The position numbers were made by a program, and so were the translations under genes. 64,000 bases of DNA from an uncultured Prevotellaceae bacterium. Lineage in GTDB: Bacteria; Bacteroidota; Bacteroidia; Bacteroidales; Bacteroidaceae. Of this stretch, positions 1 to 53,469 are shown one piece after another. Below the pieces are notes generated by a model, which made no database searches, was not told where the DNA came from, and saw only the letters and a list, made by a program, of their open reading frames with translations. Location of the stretch: positions 1-64,000 of the forward strand of contig ONCK01000009.1 in the NCBI GenBank assembly GCA_900316315.1. Direction: 5' to 3'. Numbering within the stretch: position 1 is the stretch's first letter; every line of letters starts with the position of its first letter.

Positions 1-257
1 GTGCCGATGTAGTGATGACAAGTCGCCTTGTAAGCGCTACAAGGTCGGATGTAGTTTAAACTAGGTCGGACTTAGTTTAAACTGGAAGGCGAGTTGTTAC
101 CGTCTGATAGCCAGTTAGTTACGAGAGTGTCAAATCTTGTTTGTAATTCTTTGGATTTCAGTGAGTTACAAAGGCAATTTGAGGGTATTTCCATCTTTTT
201 GTCTTCAGGTGCAATCCGAGAAGCGTCATCCAATTTTTTATAATAAAAAAATTATTT
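1..257 (+). repeat. Interspersed ~290-bp repeat element, copy 1 (left end cut by window edge)
   Basis: This is the first of four copies of the same non-coding element; the others are at 18714-19001, 31863-32152 (inverted) and 53181-53469. The conserved 80-bp core lies at 18-97. Its ends, ACAAGTCGCCTT (18-29) and AAGGCGAGTTGT (86-97), pair with one mismatch. Inside are the hairpin CCTTGTA/TACAAGG (26-32 with 38-44) and the palindrome GTTTAAACTA/TAGTTTAAAC (54-63 with 73-82). The right boundary is an AT block at about 234-257. No reading frame is conserved between copies. A mobile MITE-like element or a structured RNA are both possible. Confidence 0.8.
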
Positions 258-299
258 CTGAGGAACTCGGATGGGAATGACTATCTGTATCTACACACT

Positions 300-470
300 T
301 GGCGATTGCGGAAAAATTTTCAGTCAAGCGCGTAATAGTTTCCGGTTAGCTGCAAAAAGTGTCCCGCTGGAATGTGTAAAATCCCATTGGAGTGCGAAAA
401 GAGTCCTAATGAAGTGCGAAAGGGATCCGGGGGAATGCGAGAGGAGTCCCGGTAAAGTGTGCCAAAGGTA
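300..470. repeat. Degenerate tandem array, 21-22 bp period, about 8 units
   Basis: Copies of a TGCG/TGTG-plus-A-tract anchor start at 307, 330, 351, 373, 393, 415, 436 and 458, giving steps of 20-23 bp. Units read roughly TGCGAAAAGAGTCCCGNTGGA. On the minus strand they become a T-tract followed about 13 bp later by CGGA-like bases, the same layout as the arrays at 37280-37510 and 47620-47875. The period is a multiple of three over part of the array, so a short plus-strand frame at 271-471 shows a seven-residue repeat. I do not treat that frame as a gene. The array lies directly right of repeat copy 1. Confidence 0.65.
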
Positions 471-1186
471 AATGTAATCGGAATATCATCCGTATCGCTC
501 CATTCGACCTGCTGTCAGGAGGGCCTCTGTCACGGATGTAGACCAGCCGATTTGCCGTGGGCGAAGAGGAGAATCGTGTGCCTGAGGTCTTTTGGACACC
601 AATGGAGACTCTTTCTCCTATATTTTCCGACGGCCCACGAATACTTGTTGTCACTACTCTAGTTGTCTCTTGTTTTAGAATCATTTTCGCTGTCGCTCCC
701 CTGTAGCCAGTTATCACGAGGCCTGTCCTTAGCGCTACGTTGAGGCCGCCATCTATTGTGTGACCCCTTGCTGGCATCAGAGAATACGTGTGGCAGGCGG
801 CAGACTGCGAGTCGCGAGCGAATGTACGCCTTGTGGGGTTGACGATATCTTACTGTAAGGAGAGGATGTCTTGCTCTCGTACAATGCTATCGGATTTATC
901 GGTATTTTTGAAGAAATGCTATAGAAAAGAGACGCCGATGAAATCATCATTTTTATTCTGAATCTCCGATTTATGCCGATGAAATCGACACAAATTTCTT
1001 TGTGGCTGTTTTTGTACTTGATTGCAGCATTGTTCTGTGTGGTGTCGGGACATTTTTGTCGCTTTTTTTCGGCGCTGTAATGTGGGCATATTGCCACAGG
1101 AGAGGGCAACCTCTCCTTAGTCGTCTTGGAGGGATGGAGATAGCAATATTTAGCGCGTAAATATCGGTATTTTGATAAAAAATCAG
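471..1186. other. Gene-free stretch upstream of mutS
   Basis: No convincing gene was found. The frames crossing it lack family motifs and run into mutS in antisense. The stretch contains no clear hairpin, tRNA or repeat copy. Its right end holds the candidate mutS promoter. Confidence 0.6.
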
Positions 1187-1194
1187 TACTTTTG
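1187..1194 (+). promoter_or_regulatory. Candidate -7 box for mutS (TACTTTTG)
   Basis: A perfect match to the Bacteroidetes -7 consensus TAnnTTTG, 22 bp before the mutS start codon. No TTTG -33 box is seen at the usual 19-21 bp; the nearest, at 1171, is too close. Confidence 0.5.
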
Positions 1195-1216
1195 AGCAAC
1201 AAAATACAGACATCCA

Positions 1217-3829
1217 ATGGCACAAGACGCACTTACTCCGATGATGGCCCAATTTCGCTCTCTTAAGGCGAAACATCCTGATGCGGTGATGCTCTTCCGT
1301 TGCGGCGACTTCTATGAGACTTATTGCGAGGACGCCATATTGGCGTCCAAGGTGCTGGGCATCACGCTCACCCACCGCAACAACAAGGGCGTAGGTCAGG
1401 CTATCGAGATGGCAGGCTTCCCCTATCATGCCCTGGATGCCTATCTCCCCAAGCTTATCCGCGCCGGCTACCGCGTAGCTATCTGCGACCAGCTCGAGGA
1501 TCCCAAGCTCGCTAAAAAGCTCGTCAAGCGCGGCATCACGGAGGTCGTAACGCCCGGCGTAGCGCTGACCGACAATATGCTCAATAGCAAGGAAAACAAT
1601 TTCCTGTCGGCGCTCACTATTAGTAAGGGGGCTTGCGGCATGGCGCTGATAGACATCTCTACGGGAGAGTTTGCTGTCGCTGAGGGAACCATCGACTATA
1701 TCGCCAAGCTGTACGTCAACTTTCAGCCCAAGGAGGTGCTTGTCGTGCGCGGCAGCAAGGACCGTGTCCTCTCCGCCCTGGGTCAGACTTACTATGTGCA
1801 CGAGATGGACGACTGGGCCTTCAATGAGCAGACCGCCGTCGAGCGGCTATGCAAGCTATTTAAGGTCAAAAATATGAAAGGCTTCGGTGTCGCCCACATG
1901 CATGCCGCACTTACGGCAGCGGGGGCCATACTGAGCTACCTGGAGGAGACCCAGCATACCCACCTGAGCCATATTACGACGCTCAAGCGCATCGATGAGG
2001 ATGAGTATGTCAGACTCGACAGCTTCACCCTGCGCAATCTGGAGCTGCTGCAGCCGCTCGCCGAGGGTGGCAAGAGCCTCCTGCAGGTTGTCGACCGTAC
2101 GCTGACGCCGATGGGAGGACGCCTGCTGAGACGTTGGCTGAGCTTCCCCCTCTGCCGTGTCAAGGATATCAAGCAGCGTCAGGACTGCGTGGAATACTGC
2201 TTCCGTGAGCCCTCGTTCCGCCGGACGGTGATAGAGCAGCTACAGACTATCGGCGACATGGAACGCTTGATTGCCAAGCTGTCCACGGGCCGTATCACTC
2301 CGCGCGAGATGCAGCAATTGCGCTACGACCTCGAGGCTATCCCCCCGCTCAAGAAGGCCTGCGAGGATAGCGATCTGTCGTCGCTGCGCGACATCGGCAG
2401 CCGTATGGATGGCCTTAAGGAACTTCACGACCTGATACGCGATACACTGGTGCCCGATCCGCCCTCGCAGACAAACAAGGGAGGATACATCGCCAAGGGA
2501 GTGGATGAAAAACTGGACGAACTGCGTGATATCTCGACCAATAGTCGAGAATATCTGCTCCAGATGCAGCAGCGGGAGAGCGAGCGCACGGGCATACAGA
2601 GTCTCAAGATAGGCTTCAACAATGTCTTTGGCTACTATCTGGAGGTGAGAAATACCTTCAAGGACAAAGTGCCGCCCGAGTGGGTACGCAAGCAGACACT
2701 GGTCAATGCCGAACGCTATATCACGCAAGAGCTTAAGGAGTACGAGGAGAAGATACTCGGTGCTGAGGACCGCATGCTCGTGATAGAGGCTCAGATCTAT
2801 GCGCGTCTGACCGCCCGTGTCGCCCAAGACATAGCGACGATACAGCGTGACGCACTGATGGTGAGCCAGCTGGACTGCTTGGTCAACTTTGCTACCGTGG
2901 CTGAGGAGCGCCGCTATACGAGGCCCATTGTGGACGAGAGCACTGAGCTCGACATACGCGACGGCCGCCACCCCGTGATCGAGACCGAGATGGCCGCAGG
3001 AGAGTCGTATGTACCCAATGATGTGCACCTCGACACAGAGCATCAGCAGATCCTCATCATTACTGGCCCCAATATGGCCGGTAAATCGGCGCTGCTGCGT
3101 CAGACGGCGCTTATCGTACTGCTTGCCCAGACCGGTAGTTTTGTGCCCGCCTCGAGTGCGCACATCGGGCTCGTAGACAAAATATTCACCCGCGTCGGCG
3201 CCAGCGACAATATCTCAGCCGGTGAGAGTACCTTCATGGTGGAGATGAGCGAGGCCGCAAGCATCATCAACGGCATCACGCAGCGCAGCCTCGTGCTCTT
3301 TGACGAACTGGGCCGAGGCACGTCTACTTACGACGGTATCTCTATCGCATGGGCCATTATCGAATACCTGCACGACAATCCGCACAATGCCCATCCGCGC
3401 ACGCTCTTCTCGACCCACTATCACGAGCTCAATGAGATGGAGAAGCGGTATCCGCGTGTCAAAAACTTCAATGTGAGTGTCAAGGAGGTGGGGCATCAGG
3501 TTATCTTCCTGCGTAAGTTGGTGCCGGGAGGTAGCGAGCACTCCTTTGGTATCCACGTGGCGCAGATGGCCGGCATGCCCGCGTCTATTGTCAAGAGGGC
3601 CAACCAAGTACTCAAGCAACTAGAGGCACACAGTCAGGGCCAGAGCGTCAGCAAACCGATACCCGAAAAACCGGAAGAAGAGGGCGTGCAGCTCAGCTTC
3701 TTCCAGCTCGATGATCCCGTGCTGTGCCAGATACGGGACCGTATTCTCAATCTTGATATCAACAGTCTGACACCCTTGCAAGCCCTTAACATGCTCAACG
3801 ATATCAAGCGCATCGTCAAGGGTGAGTAG
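1217..3829 (+). CDS. mutS: DNA mismatch repair protein MutS
   Basis: Cytoplasmic mismatch-recognition ATPase that binds mispaired or looped DNA and starts repair together with MutL. The 870-residue product has the normal length. The mismatch-contacting Phe-x-Glu motif is visible as GDFYE at residues 30-34. The core and lever domains follow, then the C-terminal ABC-type ATPase with Walker [10 protein letters not shown] near residue 616, Walker B and signature residues [12 protein letters not shown] near 695, and the downstream STHYHEL motif. The ATG at 1217 fits the family N terminus and lies just after a candidate -7 box. The gene ends 24 bp before the convergent SGNH esterase gene, with no strong terminator between them. 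There is no mutL in the window. Confidence 0.97.
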
Positions 3830-3853
3830 GAAAATCAACTGAACGCCTTACCG

Positions 3854-4696
3854 TCACTTCTCATAGCTCAACCTTGTACCGATAAAGCCCGCTTGGGCAA
3901 ACTCAGACGGGTGCTGGCGAATGATATGGTCGATGTAGGTCATCATGACCCAGGCTGTCCACTCGTAGCCTGCGGCATTGAGGTGGCCGCCTACAAAGTA
4001 GCGGCTTCTGAACTCCTTGTCGCTATAGTCGGGTCCGTACTTGTGGAGATCGATCACGTAGAGGCGGCTAAACTTGGCGGGGAGCTGGCGGATAAATGAG
4101 TTGTAGGGACTCTCAGCTCCATTGTAGCGCCCGGGATCTGTGACTACGAAGACGAAGCAGTCGGGGCTGATGCTGCGTATGCGCTGTATGATACCGGCAT
4201 ACTGGCCTGCAAAAGTGTTTGCATTGTGATGATAGTCGTCTAGGTCGATGTCTGTGTCGATGTTGCCGGCAGGTACTTTGTGGAGGGCGTCGTTTACGCC
4301 GAGCGCGATGATATAGGCTTGCTTTGGGCTCCGATGGGCATCGATATTGCGATTGATGTTGTAGGGATGACTCCAGAAGTGGTCAATCCATCCTCGCGCC
4401 GTCTCGCCGCCTTGGGAGTAATTGTCGCCGTCAACTCCCATCAGCCGGCACATACGCTGCCCCCAGGAGTACTCATAGAAGTCGTGGTAGCCACGCTTGC
4501 CGTCCTTGAGACTCTCAAACTCGCCGCTGGAGAGCGAGTCTCCGATGAAGCCCCAGTGATGAAAGATGGAGCAAAAACCAGGATACTGATGGATGGTGGC
4601 AAGAGGGTTGTCAGTGGCTGTTGTGCCGAGCGTATGCTGCACAAAAGGCATGAAGAGAAAGAGGGTAAGTAGAAGAAAAATTTTTCGCAGAGACAT
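3854..4696 (-). CDS. Secreted SGNH/GDSL-family esterase
   Basis: Probable exported hydrolase of the SGNH fold, acting on ester bonds of an unknown substrate. The 280-residue product begins with a signal peptide (SLRKIFLLLTLFLFMPF). Block I appears as GDSLSSGEFES with the catalytic Ser, block III as ALGVNDAL, and block V as GGHLNAAGY with the catalytic His. The usual Asp three residues before that His is Val here. I chose ATG 4696 because the signal peptide starts there; an upstream GTG at 4753 would only add an Asn/Lys-rich leader and overlap comM. A run of 12 A residues (4699-4710) sits immediately before the start and could vary in length. The gene is last in a minus-strand group after comM, 37 bp away. 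Confidence 0.8.
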   Translation of the reverse strand: MSLRKIFLLLTLFLFMPFVQHTLGTTATDNPLATIHQYPGFCSIFHHWGFIGDSLSSGEFESLKDGKRGYHDFYEYSWGQRMCRLMGVDGDNYSQGGETARGWIDHFWSHPYNINRNIDAHRSPKQAYIIALGVNDALHKVPAGNIDTDIDLDDYHHNANTFAGQYAGIIQRIRSISPDCFVFVVTDPGRYNGAESPYNSFIRQLPAKFSRLYVIDLHKYGPDYSDKEFRSRYFVGGHLNAAGYEWTAWVMMTYIDHIIRQHPSEFAQAGFIGTRLSYEK

Positions 4697-4733
4697 ACTT
4701 TTTTTTTTTTGAGATTGATATACTGTCTGGAAG

Positions 4734-6272
4734 TTATTCGCCCCACGTACCACGGTCGAGGTTGCGATAGCCTACGGCCTCGCTGATATGGTGAGCCCGG
4801 ATGGTGTCACTATGGTCGAGGTCGGCGATGGTGCGGGCTACCTTGAGGATACGCTCATAGGCTCTGGCACTGAGATCGAGGCGTGTCATGGCCGCTTGGA
4901 GGAGTTGTCGGCCGGCTTGGTCGGGCTCAGCATATGCGCGGAGCATCTTGGAGGTCATCTGGGCGTTGCAGTAGATGCCCGGGATGCCTTGGAAGCGTGC
5001 CTTCTGCCGCTCGCGGGCCTCGACGACGCGGCCGCGTATCGTCGCGCTGGACTCTCCCTGCGGCGCTGCGGCGAGCTCCTTGAAGGGCACCGGTGTCACC
5101 TCGATCTGGAGGTCTATGCGGTCGAGCAGGGGGCCGCTGATGCGGCTCAGATACTGCTTGATCTGTCCCGGCGTACAGGTACAGGCGTGGGTAGGATGGT
5201 TGTAGTACCCGCAGGGGCAGGGATTCATGCTCGCCACGAGCATGAAGGAGCAGGGCAGCTGGATGGTGTAGCGTGCACGGCTGATGGTGATGACCCTGTC
5301 CTCAAGGGGCTGACGCAGTGTCTCAAGGGCATTTTTGCTAAAGTGGGGAAGTTCGTCGAGGAAGAGCACTCCATTGTGTGCCAGACTGATTTCGCCGGGC
5401 TGGAAGGTCGTACCTCCGCCGATGAGGGCGACGTCTGATATCGTGTGATGAGGACTACGGAACGGGCGGCGTGAGATGAGCGACGTACCGGGAGGGAGAA
5501 CGCCGGCTACAGAGTGGATCTGAGTGGTCTCAAGGCTCTCATGAAGAGTGAGAGGAGGTAGAATAGAGGGTAGCCGCTTGGCCATCATGGACTTGCCGCA
5601 GCCGGGTGATCCGACGAGGATGATATTGTGTCCGCCGGCGGCGGCAATCTCGAGGGCGCGCTTCACATTGTCCTGCCCCTTGACGTCGATAAAGTCGGAC
5701 TGGAAGGTCGCCTGCTGGCTGTAAAACTCCTTGCGCGTATCGACGATGGTGGGCTGGAGCGTACCGCGTCCATTGAGGAAGTCAGCAACCTCGGTGATGT
5801 GGTGGGCGCCATAGACCTTGAGGCGATTGACGACGGCTGCTTCGCGTGCATTGTCGGCCGGGAGGATGAGACTCTCAAATCCTTCCTCGCGCGCCTTGAT
5901 GGCTATCGGGAGCGCTCCCCGTACGGGACGCAACGAGCCGTCGAGTCCGAGCTCGCCGACGAAGACATAGCGCTTGAGATTGTCCGCCGATATGACTTGG
6001 CTGGCGGCCAGCATGCCGATGGCAAGAGGCAGATCATAGGCGGTGCCTTCCTTGCGGATGTTGGCGGGGGCCATATTGATGACAACGCGTCGCTGAGGCA
6101 TGTGGAAACCTGTATTGGCTATCGCGGTCTGGATGCGCTTGGCGCTCTCGCGCACCGCATTGTCGGGCAAGCCGACGAGGGAGAAGTCGGCGCCGTTGGA
6201 CACGTTGATTTCGATAAGTACGGTAGTGGCCTTCAGACCGTCGACTGCTGTGCTGAAGAGTTGTATCAACAT
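4734..6272 (-). CDS. comM: YifB/ComM-family Mg-chelatase-like AAA+ ATPase
   Basis: Cytoplasmic AAA+ protein. The ComM family forms a hexameric helicase that promotes branch migration when incoming DNA is integrated during natural transformation. The 512-residue product has the typical family length. It has an N-terminal ChlI/Lon-protease-like domain (TAVDGLKATTVLIEINVSNG to about residue 170), Walker A GSPGCGKSMMAKRLP near residue 215, Walker B FLDELPHF, a zinc-ribbon-like insert (CPCGYYNHPTHACTCTPGQ), an arginine-finger region (LLDRIDLQIE) and a C-terminal Mg-chelatase domain. The start at MLIQLF (6272) matches the family; the open frame upstream is unsupported. The gene begins 20 bp after the thioredoxin-like gene, suggesting co-transcription. 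Confidence 0.92.
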   Translation of the reverse strand: MLIQLFSTAVDGLKATTVLIEINVSNGADFSLVGLPDNAVRESAKRIQTAIANTGFHMPQRRVVINMAPANIRKEGTAYDLPLAIGMLAASQVISADNLKRYVFVGELGLDGSLRPVRGALPIAIKAREEGFESLILPADNAREAAVVNRLKVYGAHHITEVADFLNGRGTLQPTIVDTRKEFYSQQATFQSDFIDVKGQDNVKRALEIAAAGGHNIILVGSPGCGKSMMAKRLPSILPPLTLHESLETTQIHSVAGVLPPGTSLISRRPFRSPHHTISDVALIGGGTTFQPGEISLAHNGVLFLDELPHFSKNALETLRQPLEDRVITISRARYTIQLPCSFMLVASMNPCPCGYYNHPTHACTCTPGQIKQYLSRISGPLLDRIDLQIEVTPVPFKELAAAPQGESSATIRGRVVEARERQKARFQGIPGIYCNAQMTSKMLRAYAEPDQAGRQLLQAAMTRLDLSARAYERILKVARTIADLDHSDTIRAHHISEAVGYRNLDRGTWGE

Positions 6273-6292
6273 GGGGAGGGGGAGTTGGGTAG

Positions 6293-7339: not shown

Positions 7340-7387
7340 GGTGAGCGGTGCTTTTTACCCTTCTGAATATATGGAGACGGGATGGTC

Positions 7388-17972: not shown

Positions 17973-18713
17973 CGGGTATTTGGACTACAATGTACCTCAA
18001 AAATTCTTTTTTTCTCTATTTTGTATGGCAAAAAGTCCTTTTTCTAGCTCTCAGACGACACGGAAATGGGTGTAGTTGGCTTGACAGATTGAGTAAAGCT
18101 GGGGCGGCAAGATACGATATCCGATGTTGGCGGCGCGGAGCTGGAATGGAGGTAAACTCCATGTAGTCTGGATAAAATCGCATCAGGCTTGGCTTGAACC
18201 GCATCCGACCTTGTCGTTTCTGCTGAGTGTCGTCCTTTAATCTTTCTGACGGATAGTATGCCATTTTTCCGAGAGTTTGTCTACGGCATCCGATTGTACG
18301 AGGAGAGAGACTCGAGGGGGATATTGGGCAGTGGAAGACAGACAGAAGCAGACGTATCGTCTAGCGATGAGGGAAGGAGGAAAAAATACTTATCTGTCCT
18401 GTCTTTTCGGCGTGTACGGTGGTTTCCATCTCGGCGTCAGAAGTTGGTGCCACAGCATTCGGCGAATGGTCTATAGGAGGGATGACCATCTCGTTGCCAT
18501 GCTCTATAAATGCGGCCACCATGAGGCTGGACCATTTTAAGCCGGCCGCGCCAACTTAGCCGCGCTATTTGCGCCATTGACTGTCGCATGCTTTCTCAGA
18601 TAGTATGCTTTGGAAGTATGCTACGCGCGGGAGGTCGACGTACGTAGTTGATCTCTGTATCCGAAGCGTCCCACAAGCGTATAGCAGCCCGGCAGAATTT
18701 AGATAGTCTATCA
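17973..18713. other. Gene-free stretch left of repeat copy 2, including the repeat's left arm
   Basis: No gene with family features is present. From about 18603 the sequence (GTATGCTTTGGAAGTATGCT and onward) is recognisably related to 53068 onward, so the repeat's homology extends about 111 bp left of its AT block. Two CGGA/CCGA anchors 21 bp apart near 18184-18208 suggest decayed 21-bp units. Confidence 0.5.
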
Positions 18714-19001
18714 TTTTTTATATAATAAATTCGGTATACTGCCTCGTACAGGAGCTGATGTTGTGATGACAAGTCGCCTTGTAAGCGCAACAAGGTCGGA
18801 TGTAGTTTAAACTAGGTCGGACTTAGTTTAAACTGGAAGGCGAGTTGTTGTCGCCTGATAGCCAACTAGTTACGAGAAAACCAAATCTTGTTTATAATTC
18901 GTTGGATTTCAGCGAGTTACAAAGGCGTCTTGAGGGGATTTGCGCCATTTTGTCTTCGGGAGAAGCGAAGACACTCAGCTCAATTTTCTTATTATAAAAA
19001 A
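18714..19001 (+). repeat. Interspersed ~290-bp repeat element, copy 2
   Basis: This complete copy is bounded by AT blocks TTTTTTATATAATAAAT (18714-18730) and TTTTCTTATTATAAAAAA (18984-19001). The 80-bp core is at 18769-18848, with outer pairing arms ACAAGTCGCCTT and AAGGCGAGTTGT and the internal GTTTAAAC palindrome. A second inverted pair, TTTATAATTC with GAGTTACAAA, lies in the right half. Flanking arms related to those of copy 4 extend to about 18603 and beyond 19081. It has no coding content. Confidence 0.9.
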
Positions 19002-19398
19002 TGATTGTTCCTTTAAGTTCTTGGGGCATCGTGTGCTTGTGCTGCTAGGCTTGACCTTCACAGGATGATTTACGGCAAAGTGCGGAAAACTTCCAGGGAA
19101 AGTTAGGCGGTAAGGAGGCACAATGGGACGGCAGGGGGATCGTGATTGAGCCCATGGGGAACATCATCGTGCAGTGGGATAAGTAATCAGGACAACGTTG
19201 GTTTCATCCCCGCTTAAAGGCCGAACGGGTATCGTCCGTCACGGATGTCTACCAGCGGTCCCGCGATGAGGGTAGAGGAGGAGTCGTCGGATGACCTTCT
19301 GCGGTCGGCGAAGAAGGTTTTACTCCTTCCTTCAACGTTTTTTCTGCTGACTCCGGATATGCCGGTGAGGGATTTTCGATCCAGAGGATGTCTCCGGT
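19002..19398. other. Gene-free stretch right of repeat copy 2
   Basis: No gene is supported. Around 19081 the sequence TGCGGAAAACTTCCAGGG matches the right arm of copy 4 near 53552 and of copy 1 near 307. A short minus-strand frame at 19249-19497 has no family features. Confidence 0.5.
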
Positions 19399-19440
19399 GT
19401 AAATACGGCAGCGGCGTGAAGTAAATGCTTCACGCCGCTG
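19399..19440 (-). terminator. Terminator for the unknown lipoprotein gene
   Basis: CAGCGGCGTGAAG (19409-19421) pairs perfectly with CTTCACGCCGCTG (19428-19440), 6-base loop. On the minus strand it is followed by a TATTTACA tract, about 65 bp after the stop. Confidence 0.75.
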
Positions 19441-31270: not shown

Positions 31271-31862
31271 GAAAAATCAGATACATGATGGGTCCGTGAG
31301 AGATGCTTTTTTGATTAATTCTGACAAGATATTTTTTTACTGCCTCTGATACCCGTTTTAGGATACCCTCGTGCCGGACCTGTCAGGTGCCCGAAAGTGT
31401 CCCCGGACAGGCGAAGAAGTGGATGCCAGATGCGGCTGAGGAATATATGCGATCCGTGTCGTCCGGTCCAGTGGGCTCAATGGGAGAGACAAGCAGAGGG
31501 TAGCGCAAAATCAGGAAGGAATGTCTCCTCTCTTGCCGCTTGCTGGATGTCAGCCAGCGGCTCACCCGCTGCTCTCGTAGCTGTTTGACGAATTTATGTC
31601 CGCGGCGGATACTGTCTAATCGGGCAGGCCAATAGGGCGGGACGGATAAAGCCTCAATCACTTTGCCTGCCGCATCGGTCGCGCCGTCTGCTGCCCGATA
31701 ACTTTCCGGGGCGCCTCCTGCTACCTCTCTTATTTCCCAATCGCTTGCCTCTATCGTGCTGCTTTCATCGGTAGTTTTCCTCTCTTCACCGAAGGCTTTT
31801 ACCCGAGAGTCAGACCTATCTTTGCAGGCATCTGCTGTATCAAGGGTTTAAGGAGACCGTAA
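31271..31862. other. Gene-free stretch between the pyr promoter and repeat copy 3
   Basis: No gene is supported. On the minus strand the part near 31750-31800 (GAGGAAAACTACCGATGAAA) resembles the right arms of repeat copies 2 and 4, so the element extends into this stretch. The rest is unrecognised. Confidence 0.45.
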
Positions 31863-32152
31863 TTTTATTATATAAAAAAATTGAGATGAGCTTCCTCGAT
31901 TGTCTCTGAAGACGAAAAGATGAAAATTGTTCCGGAACGCCTCTGTAACTCACTGAAATACAATGAATTAAAAACAAGTTTTGACGTTCTTGCAACTAAC
32001 TGGCTATCAGGTGATAACAACTCGCCTTCCAGTTTAAACAAAGTCCGACCTAGTTTAAATTACATCCGACCTTGTTGCGCTTACAAGGCGACTTGTTAGC
32101 ACAACATCGGCACCTGTATCGGACAGAATGCCGGATTTATTATATAAAAAAA
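31863..32152 (-). repeat. Interspersed ~290-bp repeat element, copy 3 (inverted)
   Basis: A complete copy in the opposite orientation. AT blocks lie at 31863-31880 and 32135-32152. The core at 32017-32096 is again exactly 80 bp between the outer arm ends. On the minus strand it reads the same CCTTGT/ACAAGG hairpin, two GGTCGGA units and the GTTTAAAC segments, with a few substitutions. It ends about 555 bp upstream of the porin stop, and there is no coding frame. Confidence 0.9.
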
Positions 32153-32630
32153 CAAGGAGCTGTCATACACTTTGGAAAGCCCTCGGAGATGAAAGCCGAC
32201 TATGGAGGGTGCTGTCCCTTGCGTAAGGATTTTCAGCGAATCCCGTCAAGGACATCGCGCGACGGGTTGTGGCGGGGCGGTGCAATAAGGCCGATGAGTG
32301 GGGGCAGAATTCGTCCGACATCCTGATTGCTGCCTTGAGGGAGCATGACGAGGAAATTTTTAAGGCATCCTGTACAATTTCCGTTACTCAAATACTGTCG
32401 TGGGAGCTACCTGTCATTGACTGTGACGCTTCGGATTCCGTCAGGGAGGCGTTGCAGATAAAATGGGGCATACTTTTTCTCCATCATAAGGCCATATACT
32501 TGTTTTTTGAGGGATGTTATTGGGCCAAGGACTGGCCGAGTAGAGGTCATGTCTGATGTAGGCCGGCGAGGGTGCGCTCCCTTACGGTCTAGTCTGCGAT
32601 GTCGGCTAGATGATAGGGTATTTAAAAGGA
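32153..32630. other. Gene-free stretch right of repeat copy 3
   Basis: The first ~110 bp are distantly related to the left arm of copies 2 and 4 (CATCTCCGAGGGCTTTCC on the minus strand). No gene or RNA is recognised in the remainder. Confidence 0.45.
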
Positions 32631-37279: not shown

Positions 37280-37510
37280 ATACATATTTTAAATAGGGAC
37301 CATCTGGGCTAAATCAAAGTATGATGTGATTTTGACAGAGCGGGTCCTGGCTTCAATAGAGCCTGACGTAGTTTGAATTGGGTAGTATCCTATTTTAAAC
37401 AAGGTAAGAGATAGTTTTGCCAAGACGGCTTGGTGTCTCAATCAGATAGAATGTATTTTAAACAAGATGGCTCCTGGTCGAAACAAGGTCGGACCTTGTT
37501 TTGCTTCTGG
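37280..37510 (+). repeat. Degenerate tandem array, 21-bp period, about 11 units
   Basis: A TTTTAAA-like anchor recurs at 37287, 37309, 37330, 37351, 37372, 37393, 37415, 37436, 37456, 37477 and 37499, i.e. steps of 20-22 bp. The best units read TATTTTAAACAAGGTAAGA, TATTTTAAACAAGATGGCTC and GTCGAAACAAGGTCGGACC. The consensus is a T-rich start, AAAC, then AAGGTCGGAC, the same unit as in the cores of the four interspersed repeats. Units are only about half identical to each other, but the spacing is kept. It ends with the palindrome AACAAGGTCGGACCTTGTT. There is no coding frame through it. Confidence 0.7.
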
Positions 37511-41396: not shown

Positions 41397-41992
41397 GAGG
41401 GCGGTGGGTCTCTAGCAGGATAGGAGATACATTAATATATAAAGGTTTTTACGATGGCAGATCGTACCAAAGTGTCGCGGCAAGCACAAAAGTACTAAAA
41501 CTTGATAACCTGAAACTTATCTGCCGGAAAAATTGTTGGCTGCGACAGCCTATTGATTTGTCTCATGTCGCATACGCTCTATAGATGCAGGGGAAAGAGA
41601 AAAGTTAAAATAGGAGAATAGAAAAAATTTCGTCTTATGCGGGAGATTCTGCCAGCGGCCTAGCGGAGAGCGAACCGGATATTGCCAGAAAACAAGACTG
41701 GACCGAGTTTAAACGATATCCGAGCCTATCGACCGAGACTCAAGGTACAGAGCTATCATCAGCGGATTGACAGCATCAGGGCCTTGTGGTATCATCGAGG
41801 CATCGCTCATCGTCCCGATACGACGCCCGACTTGTCCCGGGCGATGCTTCCGCGGTCTTTGTAAGAGGGAGATGCGGGAAACGCAACGGGGGCTTAGCGT
41901 CTTGCTGCCAATGAGTGGTAAGTGAGGAAGCGGAAGAATAGGGCTTTATCTTTTTTTGCGCTCAAGGTGAAGGCGTTCAGCGCAGAAGAAAC
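41397..41992. other. Gene-free stretch between the receptor and the mechanosensitive channel genes
   Basis: It carries divergent promoter elements at its ends. Around 41676-41763, CGGA-like anchors at about 21-22 bp (41676, 41698, 41720, 41741, 41763) and one GAGTTTAAACGATATCCGAG segment suggest a few decayed units of the 21-bp family, with weak support. No gene is present. Confidence 0.4.
41487..41494 (-). promoter_or_regulatory. Candidate -7 box for the TonB-receptor-like gene (TACTTTTG)
   Basis: A perfect TAnnTTTG match on the minus strand, about 90 bp before the start codon. No clear -33 box. Confidence 0.5.
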
Positions 41993-44961: not shown

Positions 44962-44989
44962 CGATAGCGCCCTCAGGGCATATGCGGTG

Positions 44990-47257: not shown

Positions 47258-47310
47258 TAGCTGACCCGTCGCAAGGCATCCGGTTTGTCCGAGTGGCTTT
47301 GCTGCATGAT

Positions 47311-47357
47311 AGAGGTCGCACCTTGTAGATACAGGGTGCGACCTCTTGTCTTTTTTG
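47311..47357 (+). terminator. Terminator of pckA
   Basis: A perfect 12-bp stem: AGAGGTCGCACC (47311-47322) with GGTGCGACCTCT (47335-47346), followed by TGTCTTTTTT. Confidence 0.88.
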
Positions 47358-47574
47358 TCTGCGCCTGTCGGGACGTGACAGGCGCGGAAGTAGCCCTGCA
47401 GAGGCACCTGCAGACTGTAAGCCCAGTCCGAAAAGGGGATAGAGCGGGCTGTGGAACTCATTGAAACCGATGTGGTAGAACCAGCATCATTTTCCCCCGC
47501 ATTTAGCACGAGGAAGTGGGAAATCATTTGGCTAGATACAAATGGTTGAAAGACAATAATTTACAGCAAAATCG

Positions 47575-47620
47575 GCCTCTCTTGTAACTGGCTGGCTATC
47601 AGTGGATAACAACTCGCCTT
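47575..47620 (-). repeat. Fragment of the interspersed repeat element
   Basis: On the minus strand the arm AAGGCGAGTTGT (47609-47620 as its complement) and the adjoining GATAGCCAGCC segment match one side of the repeat core. The rest of the element is missing; instead the sequence runs directly into the tandem array at 47620-47875. Confidence 0.7.
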
Positions 47621-47875
47621 CCCGTTTAAACTACATCGGATCTAGTTTAAACTACATCCAACCTTGTTTTAAAGACAACGGATATTGTTTTTAGTCAGGT
47701 CGGATAATTTTTATTCTGCATCGGGAGTTTTTCAAAGTAGCATCGGATTTTCCTGAGCAATATCGGACATTGCTTCAAGCATCAACGGATATCCTTTGAG
47801 TTGCTTCAGATATTGTCCGAGCGAGGCAGGATATCCGTCGAGTCGTATCAGGCTATGCGGCGATTTCATCGGGTA
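47620..47875 (+). repeat. Degenerate tandem array, 21-22 bp period, about 12 units
   Basis: A CGGA-like anchor recurs at 47637, 47658, 47679, 47701, 47722, 47744, 47764, 47786, 47807, 47827, 47849 and 47870, i.e. steps of 20-22 bp. Example units are TTGTTTTAAAGACAACGGAT and TTGTTTTTAGTCAGGTCGG, then increasingly diverged ones. The first units (CGTTTAAACTACATCGGATC) are identical in type to the core of the interspersed repeat. The array therefore appears to grow out of a partial repeat copy and decay with distance. No reading frame runs through it. Confidence 0.75.
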
Positions 47876-48230
47876 TGGAGGGGAGGCTGAGGCTTCTTTT
47901 CGCTGATGGGTCTCATGTGGATTTGTGGTGAGCTGACACAGTGCTGTCGAGATGCGTTGATATCATTTTTCACCCTCTTACGGTAGTCTTTAGGATAGAG
48001 CGTAGGGACAGGCAGCTCGCTCGGGGCGGGTAGTTTGTCTGTCCGCCCCGTTCCCTGCGAGGCTGTGTACGCTGCAGCTTCCGGTCTGATAGATTATGGA
48101 GGCCGATTTGACGCCACTATCTCTCCTCCGTGTCCGACAAGGGGCGCCTTTGCGTAGTGTACCCCTATCCGGATAGGACGCGGATACGAAAATTTCATTT
48201 TCTTTATCCTTCATTGTGCTCGCTTATTCG
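47876..48230. other. Gene-free stretch between the tandem array and the GH3 gene
   Basis: No gene or structured RNA is recognised. The short minus-strand frame at 47990-48214 has no family features. Confidence 0.5.
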
Positions 48231-48238
48231 TACCTTTG
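48231..48238 (+). promoter_or_regulatory. Candidate -7 box for the GH3 operon (TACCTTTG)
   Basis: A perfect TAnnTTTG match, 51 bp before the GH3 start codon. A TTG lies about 14 bp upstream, closer than ideal. Confidence 0.5.
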
Positions 48239-48289
48239 TCTACTCATATGGAGTACAGAGCTCCGATATCCAAATACATAGAATAGCCA

Positions 48290-49798
48290 ATGAGTCTGAC
48301 ATCTGTCATAAGGCCATATTTTGAACACTATCTTACGCGTGTGGAGCAGCAGGAGGCCGCGGCTGCCGATACCCAGCGTAAGTTGCTGGCGCGTATGCTC
48401 TACGAAGCAAGTCAGACGGAGTGGGGACGCAAGTACCACTATGCCTCGCTGCAACGTTACGAGGAGTTTAACAAGTCCGTGCCCGTCAATACTTACGAGG
48501 AGCTTAAGGGATACATCGACCGCATGCGTCATGGCGAGCGCAACGTACTCTGGCCTGGCTATGTCAACTGGTATGCCAAGTCATCGGGCACGACCAATGA
48601 CAAGAGCAAGTTTATCCCCGTCAGCAAGCAGTTTATACGCGACACCCACTACGCCGGTGGTCAGGACTGCGTCGCCTACTATCTGCACCAACACCCCGAA
48701 AGCCACCTTTTCGACGGTCGTAGTCTCATACTTGGCGGCAGCCATCAGGATAATTACGATGTAAAGGGCAGTATAGTGGGAGATCTGAGCGCCATCCTCA
48801 TAGAGAATATCAATCCGCTGGCCAATCTGGTGCGCGTACCTCGCAAGTCGACAGCCCTGCTGAGCGACTTTGAGGTCAAGAGAGACCGTATAGCGCGAGA
48901 GACAGCCGACAAGGACGTGACCAATATCAGTGGCGTACCCAGCTGGATGCTCTCAGTGCTGACTAGACTGCTCGAAGTGACAGGTAAGCAGTATGTGACC
49001 GAGGTCTGGCCTCATTTGGAAGTCTTCTTCCACGGTGGTGTCGCCTTTACCCCCTATCGTGAGGCATACAAGGCTATTATCCCATCGGAGCGGATGCACT
49101 ATATGGAGACCTACAATGCGAGCGAGGGCTTCTTTGCCCTGCAGACAGATCCCGGAGACAGCGCCATGCAGCTGATGACTCACCTCGGTGTCTTCTACGA
49201 GTTTGTCCCGCTGGAAGATGTAGGGCGTCCCGATGCTGAGGCCATCCCGCTTTGGAGCGTCGAGACGGGACGCAACTATGCCATGGTCATCTCTACGACG
49301 GCCGGCCTCTGGCGCTATATGATCGGTGACACGGTTGAGTTTACCTCGGTCAACCCCTACAAGATCAAGATTACAGGCCGTACCAAGAGCTTCATCAATG
49401 CATTTGGCGAGGAGCTTATTGTGGACAATGCGGAGAAGGGCCTTGAAGAGGCCTGTCTGGCTACAGGCGCTGAGGTCCAGGAGTATACCGCCGCGCCCAT
49501 ATTTATGAATGAACATGCCCAGTGCCGTCATCAGTGGATGATAGAGTTTCGCAAGGCGCCCGCAGATGTCAATGAGTTTGCCCGCCTGCTCGACGAGGCA
49601 CTTCAGCGTATCAACTCAGACTACGAGGCCAAGCGGGCCAAAAATATCACCCTGCAGCCACTGGAAATCATCGTGGCACGCCGGGGCCTCTTTGATGACT
49701 GGCTCCGGAGCGAGGGCAAGTTGGGCGGACAGCACAAAGTGCCGCGTCTGAGCAGCAACAGACAGATCATAGAGCGACTGATCGAGCTCAATAAGTGA
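48290..49798 (+). CDS. GH3-family acyl-adenylase-like protein
   Basis: A 502-residue cytoplasmic protein of the GH3 superfamily, which in plants joins amino acids to hormones via an adenylated acid. The bacterial members, common in Bacteroidetes, have no settled role. Visible features: the N-terminal helical lead (FEHYLTRVEQQ, EASQTEWGRKYHY), the ATP-binding segment WYAKSSGTTNDKSKFIPVS, the substrate-loop region ETYNASEGFF, the hinge TAGLWRYMIGDTVEFT and the late ITGRTKSFINAFGEELI. All core motifs of an active enzyme are present. It heads an operon with an Ig-like lipoprotein gene (5 bp gap) and a DUF3108 gene, suggesting an envelope-linked function. The acid it activates cannot be inferred. 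Confidence 0.9.
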   Translation: MSLTSVIRPYFEHYLTRVEQQEAAAADTQRKLLARMLYEASQTEWGRKYHYASLQRYEEFNKSVPVNTYEELKGYIDRMRHGERNVLWPGYVNWYAKSSGTTNDKSKFIPVSKQFIRDTHYAGGQDCVAYYLHQHPESHLFDGRSLILGGSHQDNYDVKGSIVGDLSAILIENINPLANLVRVPRKSTALLSDFEVKRDRIARETADKDVTNISGVPSWMLSVLTRLLEVTGKQYVTEVWPHLEVFFHGGVAFTPYREAYKAIIPSERMHYMETYNASEGFFALQTDPGDSAMQLMTHLGVFYEFVPLEDVGRPDAEAIPLWSVETGRNYAMVISTTAGLWRYMIGDTVEFTSVNPYKIKITGRTKSFINAFGEELIVDNAEKGLEEACLATGAEVQEYTAAPIFMNEHAQCRHQWMIEFRKAPADVNEFARLLDEALQRINSDYEAKRAKNITLQPLEIIVARRGLFDDWLRSEGKLGGQHKVPRLSSNRQIIERLIELNK

Positions 49799-49803
49799 TT
49801 TAG

Positions 49804-51768
49804 ATGAAGATAATCCGAACGCTGGATACTGCAAGGCAGCTGATGCGACGCATCAGACGAGGGCGGGGAGCGATGCTGTCGCTGGCCGCACTTATGCTGG
49901 TCGCCTGTGCCAATCCCGGCACGCCCGACGGCGGCCCCTATGACGAGACTCCGCCCCATGTGGTGGCCAGCAATCCCGTCTATGCCTCGCTTGACAGCAA
50001 GGGCAAGGATATAAAGATTTACTTTGACGAACTTGTGGCGCTCGACAATGCGACGGACAAGGTCGTCGTCTCTCCTCCCCAGATCACACCGCCGGATATT
50101 ACCTCTATGGGGAGGTATATACGCATCAAGCTCCAGGATTCGCTCAAGAGCAACACCACTTATACTATTGACTTCAGCGACGCCATTGTTGACAACAATG
50201 AGGGCAACCCCTTGGGCAACTATTCGTTTGTCTTCTCCACGGGTAAGACCGTCGACTCCATGGCAGTGAGCGGCACAGTGGTCAACGCAAGCAATCTCGA
50301 GCCCATCAAGGGCATACTGGTCGGCCTCCAGAGCGATACGGCTGATACGGCCTTTCAGCATAAGCCCTTCATACGCGTCGCCCGTACCGACAGTCGCGGA
50401 CATTTCAGCATACGCGGCGTAGCCGACGGTACCTACCGCGTCTATGCCCTGCAGGACGCCGACGGAGACTTCATCTACTCGCAAAAGAGTGAGCAGATCG
50501 CCTTTCTGCCCCGCACGATCAAGACAGGCTGTTTCCCCGATGTAAGACCGGATACCGTCTGGCGTGACAGTACTCACTGGGACAGCATACGCCAAGTGCA
50601 CTTCACCCACTATACTCCCGACGACATCGTACTGCGCGCCTTTACCGAGAGCCACAGCGACCGCCATCTGCTCAAGGTAGAGAGGAACGTGCCAGAACAT
50701 TTTGATGTCTACTTTACGGCTCCCTCCACCGAGCTCCCGACAGTCAAGGGACTCAATTTCAACGCCGACAATGCCTTTGCCATCGACTTCAACGAGACCA
50801 AGGATACCATCCGGTATTGGGCCAAAGACACGCTGCTGGCTTATCAGGACACCCTGGCGATGGTCCTTACCTATCTGGAAAACGACAGCACGGGTAATGT
50901 CATCACTACCTCGGACACACTCGAGGTCGTGCCCCGTGTCACTCACGCCAGACAGCAGAAATGGGCTGACGAAGCCTACAAGAAGTGGAAAAAGGAGCAA
51001 GACAAGCTTAAGAAGCGCGGCTTGCCGTATCTCACTGAGCAGCCTCCTACGCCGCTGGAGATGGATCAGCATGCTGTAAGTACGCTCGCCCCCAACGAAA
51101 ACCTGTCCTTTGTCATGAAGGAGCCCCTCGCGCTTGTAGACAGCAATAAGATACATCTCTATCTCAGGGTGGATTCGGTTGCAAAGGAGGCCTCCTTCAT
51201 CTTCCGGCAGGACGGGTCGTCTATCATGAAGTACAAGCTCTATGGCGAGTGGCGTCCGCAGCAGCAGTATACGCTTGTCATTGACTCGGCAGCCTTTGTC
51301 GGTATCTACGGCCACGCTTCCGCCAAAGTTGACTTCTCCTTCAGTATCCCCTCACTCGATACCTATTCGTCTCTCCTGGTCAATCTGCAGGGTGTCTACG
51401 ACACTACGGCAGTCGTCGAGCTGCTCAACAGCAGCGACAAGCCTGTCTTGACCACTCGGAGCCGTAACGGGCACGCTGAGTTTTACTTCGTAAGGCCGGG
51501 CACATACTACCTGCGCCTCTTCTTCGACCGCAATAACAATGGCAAGTGGGACGAAGGGGACTTTGATACCGGACAGGAGCCCGAGGAGACCTATTACTAT
51601 CCTGACAAGCTCCAGTTACGGGCCAAATGGGACGAGACCTGCAACTGGCCAGTCTTCAGCCTGCCGTTTAACAGACAGAAGCCAATCGCCATCACAAAGC
51701 AAAAACCTGACAAAGAAAAGAAAATCCAGAATAGAAATGCAGAACGTGAACGCAACAAAAACAAATAG
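49804..51768 (+). CDS. Lipoprotein with bacterial Ig-like (Big_5) domain
   Basis: A 654-residue exported lipoprotein. The start at 49804 gives a basic N region (IIRTLDTARQLMRRIRRGRGAM), a hydrophobic segment and the lipobox LVAC. The next residues (ANPGTPDGGPYDETPPHVVASNP) lead into a Big_5-type Ig-like domain at ~50-145 (DSLKSNTTYTIDFSDAIVDNNEGNPLGNYSFVFSTG). A carboxypeptidase-regulatory-like sandwich follows (VVNASNLEPIKGILVGLQSDT, VARTDSRGHFSIRGVADGTYRVYALQDADGD), then more beta-sandwich repeats. The tail is strongly basic. It is a common Bacteroidetes surface or periplasmic protein with unknown role. It lies 5 bp after GH3 and overlaps the next gene by 32 bp. Confidence 0.85.
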   Translation: MKIIRTLDTARQLMRRIRRGRGAMLSLAALMLVACANPGTPDGGPYDETPPHVVASNPVYASLDSKGKDIKIYFDELVALDNATDKVVVSPPQITPPDITSMGRYIRIKLQDSLKSNTTYTIDFSDAIVDNNEGNPLGNYSFVFSTGKTVDSMAVSGTVVNASNLEPIKGILVGLQSDTADTAFQHKPFIRVARTDSRGHFSIRGVADGTYRVYALQDADGDFIYSQKSEQIAFLPRTIKTGCFPDVRPDTVWRDSTHWDSIRQVHFTHYTPDDIVLRAFTESHSDRHLLKVERNVPEHFDVYFTAPSTELPTVKGLNFNADNAFAIDFNETKDTIRYWAKDTLLAYQDTLAMVLTYLENDSTGNVITTSDTLEVVPRVTHARQQKWADEAYKKWKKEQDKLKKRGLPYLTEQPPTPLEMDQHAVSTLAPNENLSFVMKEPLALVDSNKIHLYLRVDSVAKEASFIFRQDGSSIMKYKLYGEWRPQQQYTLVIDSAAFVGIYGHASAKVDFSFSIPSLDTYSSLLVNLQGVYDTTAVVELLNSSDKPVLTTRSRNGHAEFYFVRPGTYYLRLFFDRNNNGKWDEGDFDTGQEPEETYYYPDKLQLRAKWDETCNWPVFSLPFNRQKPIAITKQKPDKEKKIQNRNAERERNKNK

Positions 51769-52594
51769 CCAACGCCTCAGAATGCTTGCTACACTGGCGG
51801 TCTTTGTCCTCACCCTGGGCTTGGCCGCAGGCAGCCATGCCGCCGTCACCAACTCAGCCACCAATACCGCCTTTCGCAGTGGGGAGACCGTGCAGTATGA
51901 CCTCTACTACAATTGGCACTTCGTCTGGGTCAAGGCCGGCTCAGCTACGATGAGCGTTACGACCACGACCTACAGAGGCAGGCCTGCCTACCGCACGCGC
52001 CTGCTTACCAGGGGCTCGAAACAGGCCGACAGGTTCTGGGTCCTGCGCGACACCCTCACGAGCGTGATGACCTACAACCTGTTGCCTCTCGCGTACAGCA
52101 AGACCGATATGGAGGGGGACAAGTACAGACAGCGCAATGTATGGTATAGCTACAAGGGAGGCCGCTCCTATGCCCGACAGCAGTATATCAATCCCTATGG
52201 CGCTCAGAGCTGGAAGACACAGAGCAGCCATCTCACCATCTACGATATGCTCAGTATCCTGATGAGAGCCCGCTCGCTTGATGCCAGCAAGCTCCAGGTG
52301 GGTCACAAGATCAAGTTTGTCATGACCGACGGCGACGGTATAGCCGATCAGACGCTGATCTTCCGCGGCCGCAAGAATGTTAAGATGAAGACGGGCGCAG
52401 GAACGTACCGCTGCCTCGTAGTCAGTTTTGTCGAGTACGAAGAAGGTAAGCAGAGGGAGGTGGGGACCTTCTACGTGACCGATGATGGCAATCACCTGCC
52501 CGTAGCGGCTGACCTGTATCTCAAGATTGGTTCGGCCAAGATCTATATGTCTGGTTACAAAAACCTTAAGGGCCCTATGCGTGCCCGCAAATAG
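51737..52594 (+). CDS. DUF3108-family exported protein
   Basis: A 285-residue protein with an N-terminal signal (LATLAVFVLTLGLAAGSHA). The mature part is beta-rich and fits the DUF3108 family: FRSGETVQYDLYYNWHFVWVKAGSATMSV at the start, YRTRLLTRGSKQADRFWVLRDTLTSVM, DMLSILMRARSLDASKLQVGHKIKF, FVEYEEGKQREVGTFYVTDDGNHLPVAADLYLKIGSAKIY. The function of the family is unknown; it is periplasmic in Gram-negatives. I chose ATG 51737 because the signal peptide starts there. It overlaps the upstream gene by 32 bp in another frame, implying coupled translation. Last gene of the GH3 operon. Confidence 0.88.
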   Translation: MQNVNATKTNSQRLRMLATLAVFVLTLGLAAGSHAAVTNSATNTAFRSGETVQYDLYYNWHFVWVKAGSATMSVTTTTYRGRPAYRTRLLTRGSKQADRFWVLRDTLTSVMTYNLLPLAYSKTDMEGDKYRQRNVWYSYKGGRSYARQQYINPYGAQSWKTQSSHLTIYDMLSILMRARSLDASKLQVGHKIKFVMTDGDGIADQTLIFRGRKNVKMKTGAGTYRCLVVSFVEYEEGKQREVGTFYVTDDGNHLPVAADLYLKIGSAKIYMSGYKNLKGPMRARK

Positions 52595-53180
52595 AGCTTC
52601 ACAAAGGTCGCCGGAGGAGAGATTTCGTCGACTGCTTCGGGCGAATACAGACGAATAGTCGACAGGCTGGGCCTCTACAGAGACGAGGTCGGATATAGCT
52701 TAGGCTGCATCCGACCTCGTCCTTTTGTCGGGCATATCTGTATATAGATGACTTCAGACACTGTGTGGTTTTGTCCGGGTGTTGAGCTCAGCGCACTGTC
52801 AGTGGAGACGGGCGTATCGCTTAATCATTGGGAGAAGCAGGACGAGGAGACGCAGCATCGTCTCTCAGACAGGTACGGAAACGCTTTATTGTTGAGACAA
52901 AAAAGGCGCTTTATGGCTATGATGGACAGTGATTGTACAGGAAAGGTAGAGCTTTTCCCCGTAAAGCCTGTACGAAGTAGCAGCTATGATGCTGTATGAT
53001 GTTGGCTCGCTTCTATCTGTCTTGTTGTGCCGCCGAGTCTATACTCGTTCTGCATCCTTTTTGACGGTATGCTTTGAAAATGCTATATGCAAGGGGGAGA
53101 AGTTTGTCCGCACTTAGTCTCTGTCTCCGAAGATTCCTAGAAATGTACAATGGTCCGTCGGTCTTTAAGTAGTGCATTAG
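52595..53180. other. Gene-free stretch with the GH3 operon terminator and the left arm of repeat copy 4
   Basis: No gene is supported. From about 53068 (GTATGCTTTGAAAATGCT) the sequence is related to the left arm of copy 2 at 18603 onward, the same distance (about 112 bp) from the AT block. Confidence 0.5.
52682..52727 (+). terminator. Terminator of the GH3 operon, built from 21-bp repeat units
   Basis: GACGAGGTCGGAT (52682-52694) pairs perfectly with ATCCGACCTCGTC (52709-52721), followed by CTTTTG. The arms carry the GGTCGGA motif of the interspersed repeat, with the CGGA and CCGA anchors about 21 bp apart. Confidence 0.8.
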
Positions 53181-53469
53181 TTTTTTTTATATAATAAATC
53201 CGCAATACCGTTTCGTACAGGTGCCGATGTATTGATGACAAGTTGCCTTGTAAGCGTTACAAGGTCGGATGTAGTTTAAACTAGGCCGGACTTAGTTTAA
53301 ACTGGAAGGCGAGTTGTTATCGCTTGATAACCAGTTAGTTACAAGAGCTCCAAATGCTGTTTGTAATTTATTGGTTTTCAGCGTGTTACAGAGGTGATTT
53401 GAGGGGAATTTCATCCTTGTGTCTTCGGGTATAATCCGAGGAACTCAGTTCAATTTTTTATTATAAAAA
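53181..53469 (+). repeat. Interspersed ~290-bp repeat element, copy 4
   Basis: A complete copy bounded by AT blocks TTTTTTTTATATAATAAAT (53181-53199) and TTTTTTATTATAAAAA (53454-53469). The 80-bp core is at 53238-53317. One arm change, ACAAGTTGCCTT instead of ACAAGTCGCCTT, leaves a G-U pair. The inner hairpin is longest here (CCTTGTAA/TTACAAGG). One GGTCGGA has become GGCCGGA. Related arms extend left to about 53068 and right past 53552. Confidence 0.9.

Follow-up and report, generated by a model that had tools for sequence, protein, structure and literature searches.

The DNA analysed here, called the window, is a 64-kb stretch from an uncultured Prevotellaceae bacterium (GenBank assembly GCA_900316315.1, contig ONCK01000009.1, positions 1 to 64,000). 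Its gene-free islands carry a non-coding repeat element, of which the original prediction named four copies of about 290 bp. All four were found again at the same places and on the same strands (Table 1), the first being cut, as predicted, by the contig start. In every copy the outer arms, ACAAGTCGCC (ACAAGTTGCC in copy 4) and GGCGAGTTGT, span 80 bp (18-97, 18769-18848, 32017-32096, and 53238-53317). A 46-base core pattern, searched with up to three mismatches, matched the window five times, whereas 100 shuffles yielded no match. The four remain the main copies but not the total, as a fifth, truncated copy, situated in a 1.0-kb gap, and a sixth fragment were added. The nearest named MutS relatives belong to Bacteroidaceae and other Bacteroidales (up to 65% identity), and the order of the host was deduced from them as Bacteroidales.

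Organization of the element

We use the term centre for the length-stable 287-bp unit. Its left end is formed by an AT block, TTTTTTATATAATAAAT, followed by a variable stretch of 20 bp, by GTGCCGATG, and by the arm ACAAGTCGCC, in which CCTTGTAAGCGCTACAAGG forms a small inverted repeat. Next come two 21-bp modules, AGGTCGGATGTAGTTTAAACT and AGGTCGGACTTAGTTTAAACT, then GGAAGGCGAGTTGTT, and finally a gradually fading right part closed by the AT block CAATTTTTTATTATAAAA. Each module, taken from AAAC to GTTT, is close to a dyad with a central C or G, and Tandem Repeats Finder (TRF) reports a period of 21 at four places in the window. The AT blocks (TTTTTTATATAATAAAT and, as reverse complement, TTTTTTATAATAAAAAATTG) make up only a short and imperfect inverted pair, and homology runs on outside both. 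The absence of long inverted termini noted originally stands.

The size of about 290 bp holds for the indel-poor inner part, while the whole element measures roughly 1.1 kb. To show this, the masked non-coding flanks of 31 copies were aligned block by block. On the left, the mean majority-base fraction is 0.574 at -500..-300 (n = 20) and 0.637 at -300..-95 (n = 24); on the right it is 0.581 at +195..+400 (n = 26) and, farther out, 0.568 at +400..+600 (n = 24). Control sets of real intergenic pieces away from elements (eight per block) have means of 0.47-0.49 and a highest single value of 0.506, and single shuffles agree with them. Control level is reached at -700..-500 (n = 10) and +600..+800 (n = 14). 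Measured from the core centre, aligned homology thus extends to roughly -500 bp on the left and +600 bp on the right, and the arms, first put at about 110 bp on the left and 100 bp on the right, had been drawn too short. Pairwise BLAST among 43 islands detects little similarity past -225 and +275, which indicates that the outer arms are alike only weakly. Indels are common in the arms and scarce in the centre. No clear ten-base periodicity of conservation was found across copies.

On the element strand, the sequence is C-rich to the left of the core (-300..-200) and G-rich to its right (+250..+450). The skew is higher in the right arm than in the left in 26 of the 35 copies with sufficient non-coding flank, and the outward strand bias is weak. 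Beside the copy at 16715 on contig C10 of the window's own genome (G000), the right arm includes an ~85-bp tandem repeat (at about 15.9-16.3 kb; 97.5% identity over 285 bp at that offset).

Table 1. Positions of the element, its modules, and possible solo modules in the window
Feature	Position	Strand	Score or basis
Copy 1, 287-bp centre, left side lost to contig start	1..257	+	127.6 bits
Copy 2, full 287-bp centre	18714..19001	+	126.9 bits
Copy 3, full 287-bp centre	31863..32152	-	126.3 bits
Copy 4, full 287-bp centre	53181..53469	+	126 bits
Copy 5, truncated: modules and part of right half, left part gone	47536..47668	-	76 bits; coordinates derived from HMM match
Copy 6, fragment: hairpin-like ACAAGGTC..GACCTTGT module, then GGAAGGCGAGTTGT	57757..57855	+	44.4 bits
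Copy 1, pair of 21-bp dyad modules	42..83	+	TRF
Copy 2, pair of 21-bp dyad modules	18793..18834	+	
Copy 3, pair of 21-bp dyad modules	32031..32072	-	
Copy 4, pair of 21-bp dyad modules	53262..53303	+	
Whole element around copy 2, approximate; arms weakly alike, indel-rich	18311..19411	+	-500/+600 limits, block alignments of 31 copies
Whole element around copy 3, approximate	31454..32554	-	-500/+600 limits
Whole element around copy 4, approximate	52780..53880	+	-500/+600 limits
Possible solo module array, weak	18157..18216	-	E 0.0015
Possible solo module array, weak	37455..37504	-	E 0.0024
Possible solo module, very weak	41691..41731	-	E 0.093
Possible solo palindromic module, very weak	52682..52720	.	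E 0.067

Copies across the genome

The assembly to which the window belongs comprises 2.45 Mb in 31 contigs and is 99.1% complete. A 40-base pattern with up to three mismatches matches it 69 times, compared with no match for the reversed control. The genome-wide profile search proposed together with the original prediction was carried out with model R1 (127 positions, built from 30 copies), and showed further copies to be abundant. From 150 scored candidates out of 1095 it gave 148 rows, including both strands and fragments, and its counts are a lower bound. Once 19 rows scoring below 31 bits had been dropped, each overlapped by a stronger row on the opposite strand, and places within 400 bp had been merged, at least 111 places at 40 bits or more remained. 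Each of the 111 also matches a hidden Markov model (HMM) of the 287-bp centre (286 columns, built from 30 of them). In 76 the match extends to within 15 columns of either model end; 61 of these spanning copies deviate by no more than 3 bp from the model length, seven fall short of it by 20-25 bp, roughly the size of one module, and eight by 4-13 bp. Centres would account for 1.3% of the genome and whole elements for about 5%, in an assembly that may collapse identical recent copies and in which a contig end is no more than 1.2 kb away from five of the 111 places. An HMM of the right flank, without the core, has 64 matches in about 980 kb, of which 63 are at known places and one is new, suggesting that copies retaining this flank after loss of the core are rare. 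The corresponding left-flank HMM has 50 matches, 43 of them at known places.

Among 87 aligned copies, mean identity is 0.69 and the most similar pair reaches 0.884. In the tree of copies the tips are long (median 0.19), and subfamilies are marked by linked diagnostic columns; support values are rough, and the grouping by contig was picked after the scores were known. The variant GGACTTATTTTAAA occurs mainly on contigs C9, C13, C14, C15, C18, and C28, and once each on C23 and C26, while the common young form resides mainly on C10, C16, C21, C22, and C27. The number of modules per copy is one or two. The data support an old family that spread in waves by copying from a few source forms, and no recent copying is seen, apart from what the assembly may hide. 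Of the original suggestions, past transposition is supported as spread by copying, through the subfamilies, and a distinct family through a repeat dispersed over at least 111 places. Spread over short distances on the chromosome was rejected: the nearest relative is on the same contig for 8 of the 87 copies, with about 5 expected, though mean identity is higher within contigs (0.720 versus 0.688; none of 2000 shuffles was as high).

Core and flanks were compared for conservation within 45 young copies (at least 110 bits) and within 31 older ones (below 95 bits), the 11 in between being uncounted. In young copies, changes per site per copy amount to 0.043 in the inner core (columns 77-136) and 0.240 in the flanks, and the core is the less changed part in all 45. 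Corresponding values in older copies are 0.140 and 0.352, with the core lower in 31 of 31. The gap rate in young copies is 0.000-0.006 per site per copy in every 20-column block between columns 41 and 280, a measure that covers model columns and leaves insertions outside them uncounted. Common to the copies are the inner core, composed of two 21-bp dyads and GGAAGGCGAGTTGTT, and the spacing of the AT blocks; the rest differs. Near-constant length, much sequence variation, and a conserved core agree with the selection on form that had been proposed.

Placement was assessed against our own gene calls, based on open frames and codon usage. All 57 midpoints (places above 25 bits on the contigs examined) fall between gene calls, mostly hundreds of bp away from them, in gaps with a median of 1340 bp. 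The motif ACAAGGTCSGA or its complement is present 74 times in 245 kb of non-coding DNA, elements included, and never in 735 kb of coding DNA. For the 49 places with both neighbours called, 12 gaps are ++, 13 --, 13 +-, and 11 -+, which corresponds to occupancy of 25 out of 241 tandem, 13 out of 69 convergent, and 11 out of 66 divergent gaps. Orientation is even, with 58 of 111 places on the plus strand and 44 of 86 neighbours pointing the same way; among the shortest third of gaps, 11 of 29 neighbours share orientation, a mild shortage.

Copies keep apart from each other. The median spacing is about 16 kb, and the 86 gaps between consecutive places have a coefficient of variation (CV) of 0.64, with two (2.3%) under 5 kb. 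A uniform null gives a CV of 0.98 and ~24% under 5 kb, and none of 5000 draws was as low. Against random intergenic gaps of at least 60 bp (46 gaps between places, observed in six stretches), the observed CV was reached in 3 of 5000 draws and both short-gap measures in none. With sites limited to gaps of at least 300 bp, the CV, 5-kb, and 8-kb measures were reached in 0, 2, and 0 of 2000 draws, and with gaps of at least 500 bp in 11, 0, and 0.

Match score correlates with local GC content (rho 0.52, n = 52). Contig C29 has a lower GC content (0.49), is 65.5% coding, and offers 19 gaps over 1 kb, yet holds four counted copies, all weak; a small sign change of GC skew is situated near 120 kb. 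The dnaA gene shares contig C9 with three middling copies; with the contigs unordered, the idea of a link to the replication origin was set aside.

Coding, RNA, mobility, and relatives

The original statement that no frame is conserved is correct in the sense that coding constraint is not exhibited by any stop-free frame. Coding was rejected on the only stop-free consensus frame (+, columns 116-270), which has fewer synonymous changes than expected (188 versus 239.5) and 38 stop-making changes where 43 are expected. Synonymous excess was obtained in three other frame tests (z 3.5, 3.6, and 5.4) and, with z of 2.2 and 2.5, in two that cover the whole length; every frame with such excess carries 1 to 7 stops in the consensus. 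In a six-frame comparison of islands several frames are alike, pointing to similarity at the DNA level.

A search against Rfam yields one tRNA in the window and no match at E ≤ 1 for the four copies with their flanks, so that no known RNA family that might have accounted for the element was found there. We detected no convincing base-pair covariation in the element. RNAalifold proposes 43 pairs, three of them changed on both sides in at least one sequence, and the covariation term contributes -0.23 of -20.1 kcal/mol. The column pair 187/193 exceeds the shuffled maximum (63% Watson-Crick versus 45% expected), the remaining column pairs above the null are not pair-like, and paired fractions of the main hairpin in 87 copies equal those expected from independent columns.

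Target-site duplication was not seen at the AT blocks of 74 copies, the blocks being the only positions checked; the longest shared word there averages 3.35, compared with 3.27 in shuffles (108 of 500 as high). The Y1 transposase profile (PF01797), the only transposase family searched, has no match in the genome at E ≤ 0.001, and is positive in 5 of 14 control genomes. Mobilization as a repetitive extragenic palindrome (REP) driven by a REP-associated tyrosine transposase (RAYT) was rejected, as no RAYT gene is found in this genome. Horizontal origin was likewise rejected, there being no match to the element among plasmids, phages, or viral contigs. The exact core pattern is absent from the genome_contigs and viral contig collections, and the double module from the viral contigs; all the collections searched for this purpose may omit the window's own records.

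Modules also occur in this genome without the 287-bp frame, often between ACAAGGTC and GACCTTGT. A strict word search disclosed 15 gaps with solo modules in the stretches examined, 7 of them convergent and none divergent, and by eye some of these modules are able to form long hairpins. The module is visible in the consensus of 43 aligned intergenic windows drawn at random, whether or not they carried an element.

Paired modules 21 bp apart, with up to three mismatches, were found in 7 of 19 genomes of the genus, own genome included, and the backward control in 9 of 19, which makes presence alone meaningless. Counts exceed the control in G000 (134 versus 3), G010 (42 versus 0), G008 (8 versus 1), G007 (8 versus 2), and G015 (6 versus 0), where the same array can enter the count several times and a coding repeat apparently encloses at least one of the G010 places (L109). 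In G016 the backward control matched 6 and 4 times, and this genome may hold another periodic repeat. At up to two mismatches, paired modules are present in 14 of 301 genomes of the family and the control in 10. Clear cases besides the own genome are G220 (35), G010 (18), G310 (14), and G233 (8), all with a control of zero; G220, G310, and G233 are three of the 20 genomes drawn from one other genus. In those relatives R1 aligns only to stretches near the modules, covering at most about 87 of its 127 positions with a best score of 27 bits, and within the genus it gives only weak module matches, in 3 of 18 members. Five loci were viewed, and three from other genera (L318, L319, and L321) display 21-bp tiling with other letters. 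Arrays seen there by eye include CAAACAAAGTGTTTG, TATATCAGGATATAG, and TATGTCAGACATAG. These loci hint that intergenic palindromes tiled at 21 bp may form a broader class in the family.

Interpretation and comparison with known repeats

Our tentative reading, which could well be right, is an old dispersed family of intergenic non-coding DNA whose centres are kept as protein-binding DNA of fixed geometry, probably architectural; its function is one we infer. A protein or complex would bind the 21-bp dyads and, as 21 bp equal two helical turns, adjacent sites would lie on one face of the helix. The bound complex would need a fixed distance from the dyads to the AT blocks. Its use would be chromosome-wide, in architecture, topology, or segregation instead of single-gene control, because copies keep apart, avoid coding DNA, and are not clearly tied to the direction in which neighbouring genes run. 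Even spacing, combined with the lack of a clear gene-direction link, makes us prefer architecture over gene regulation. A bolder version, which we hold unlikely, would have the chromosome paved with ~100 protein-DNA assembly sites of 287 bp made of 21-bp dyads, delimiting domains of ~16 kb median size; the dyad module would be old in the family, its letters changing together with the binding protein in the manner of centromere repeats.

Several observations weigh against the architectural reading. The core has 0.48 singletons per site in columns 38-150 and 0.38 in columns 77-136, not far below the 0.53 of the flanks, so the contrast between core and flanks stems mostly from changes shared by several copies. 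Such shared changes favour constraint in the source lineages, by what is a coarse measure, and gene conversion between cores could likewise keep them alike. Spacing weakens when only gaps of at least 700 bp are taken as sites (35, 34, and 0 of 2000 for CV, 5 kb, and 8 kb), and with places down to 25 bits the 99 gaps have a CV of 0.67 and 3% under 5 kb. Copies differ by region, those on C29, C13, and C28 being older and weaker. Seven of the 50 left-flank matches fall away from known places, and a degenerate copy with decayed core (C29:90356-90629) was missed by the R1 count. The whole element occurs in no other genome examined (BLAST, 0 of 40 relatives). The protein of one flanking gene has matches in 5 of 18 other genomes of the genus at E ≤ 1e-60, at 62-66% identity; by this protein the relatives are distant, and the absence of the element says little about its age.

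The strongest rival is a decayed selfish family resembling miniature inverted-repeat transposable elements (MITEs), with a minisatellite core as in BrickBuilt and no host function, which we regard as possible but doubtful. Subfamilies with long tips and linked diagnostic columns, a module number that varies between one and two, nearly equal singleton frequencies in core and flanks, and intergenic placement all speak for it. It would have to explain the alike cores by past needs of transposition in source lineages or by gene conversion, and the spacing by target immunity or loss of close copies. It fits less well with the scarcity of indels in the centre, with only a mild orientation shortage among close neighbours, with the lack of target-site duplication at the AT blocks, of BrickBuilt termini at the window copies, and of a Y1 match, and with the absence of any pair above 88.4% identity, though the assembly could hide identical copies. 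The MITE idea put forward originally thus keeps its part on spread by copying, while a plain MITE alone leaves even spacing unexplained.

It is improbable, in our view, that the elements are islands of transcription insulation, in which palindromic modules act as terminators or hairpins at mRNA ends, as in REPs and bacterial interspersed mosaic elements (BIMEs), and the big element blocks read-through in both directions between transcription units. The convergent bias of solo modules and their potential hairpins fit this proposal, as does the higher occupancy of convergent or divergent gaps (24 of 135) compared with tandem ones. Big elements, however, are in divergent as well as convergent gaps and mostly at a distance from gene calls, no pairing covariation was observed, and a terminator requires neither a fixed 287-bp geometry nor mutual distance. 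A multi-copy structured RNA of about 287 nt seems very improbable. Stable length, AT-rich end blocks that could serve as promoter and terminator, and the few RNAalifold signals, including column pair 187/193, are consistent with it, but the negligible covariation term, column pairs that do not behave as pairs, a main hairpin at independent-column expectation, and the lack of an Rfam match argue against it.

BrickBuilt of Porphyromonas gingivalis is a MITE/minisatellite with a 23-nt unit in 1 to 22.8 repeats, 12-bp IS5-like termini GAGACCTTTGCA, a total length of 84 to 991 nt, and 19 copies in ATCC 33277, according to the part of its description available (PMC4596501). Compared with that part, our element is likewise intergenic (57 of 57 midpoints, matching the strictly intergenic BrickBuilt), non-coding, and dispersed in a Bacteroidales host, without a transposase inside and with a short tandem repeat mid-element between differing leader and tail. 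It differs in the 21-bp unit repeated once or twice, in at least 111 copies, and in a centre mostly of 287 ± 3 bp. Even spacing and core protection, both present here, are not mentioned in that part of the source. The terminus GAGACCTTTGCA is absent from the window at zero or one mismatch; nine matches were found, all with two mismatches (5.2 expected up to two), none of them inside the element. Membership of BrickBuilt, to which a related but distinct family was considered originally, is not supported, given the 21-bp unit, the absence of GAGACCTTTGCA at the copies, and no target-site duplication at the AT blocks. The MITE239/464/700 repeats of P. gingivalis are also non-autonomous and intergenic, and are described as having terminal inverted repeats (PMC4596501).

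Likeness to REP/BIME with RAYT, as far as the accessible part of that account goes (PMC3733652), is found in short intergenic palindromes in many copies, with lineage-specific letters and solo arrays often near gene ends. Unlike these, the modules viewed have no single fixed GTAG or CGTC tag, follow each other at 21 bp as parts of a long element, and are not accompanied by a Y1 transposase match. By eye, one module variant ends with GTAG within the palindrome, and others with TTAG or CTAG. In the open-licence literature, we recognised no description of this element or of 21-bp module arrays in Bacteroidales.

Systems such as matS/MatP and the gyrase sites of BIMEs consist of dispersed chromosome-organising sites that are short, numerous, spaced, and conserved. 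The element resembles them in its many spaced and conserved sites and differs in its unit of 287 bp, itself part of about 1.1 kb. Repeats scattered over bacterial genomes are commonly taken as remains of mobile DNA; the copies described here look maintained, in their stable geometry, protected core, and mutual distance. If bound by a protein, they would represent a concrete system for how repeats turn into chromosome architecture and would open a way to study how Bacteroidales chromosomes are organised in domains, and the change of 21-bp modules from lineage to lineage could guide the search for a fast-changing binding protein.

The element may also account for some contig breaks in such genomes. 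The start of contig C23 (L275), when reversed, matches positions 1-94 of the window in an exact overlap of 94 bp that falls within the element. Assembly may have split two adjoining contigs here, at the repeat, and copy 1 and the copy at the C23 end may be one and the same.

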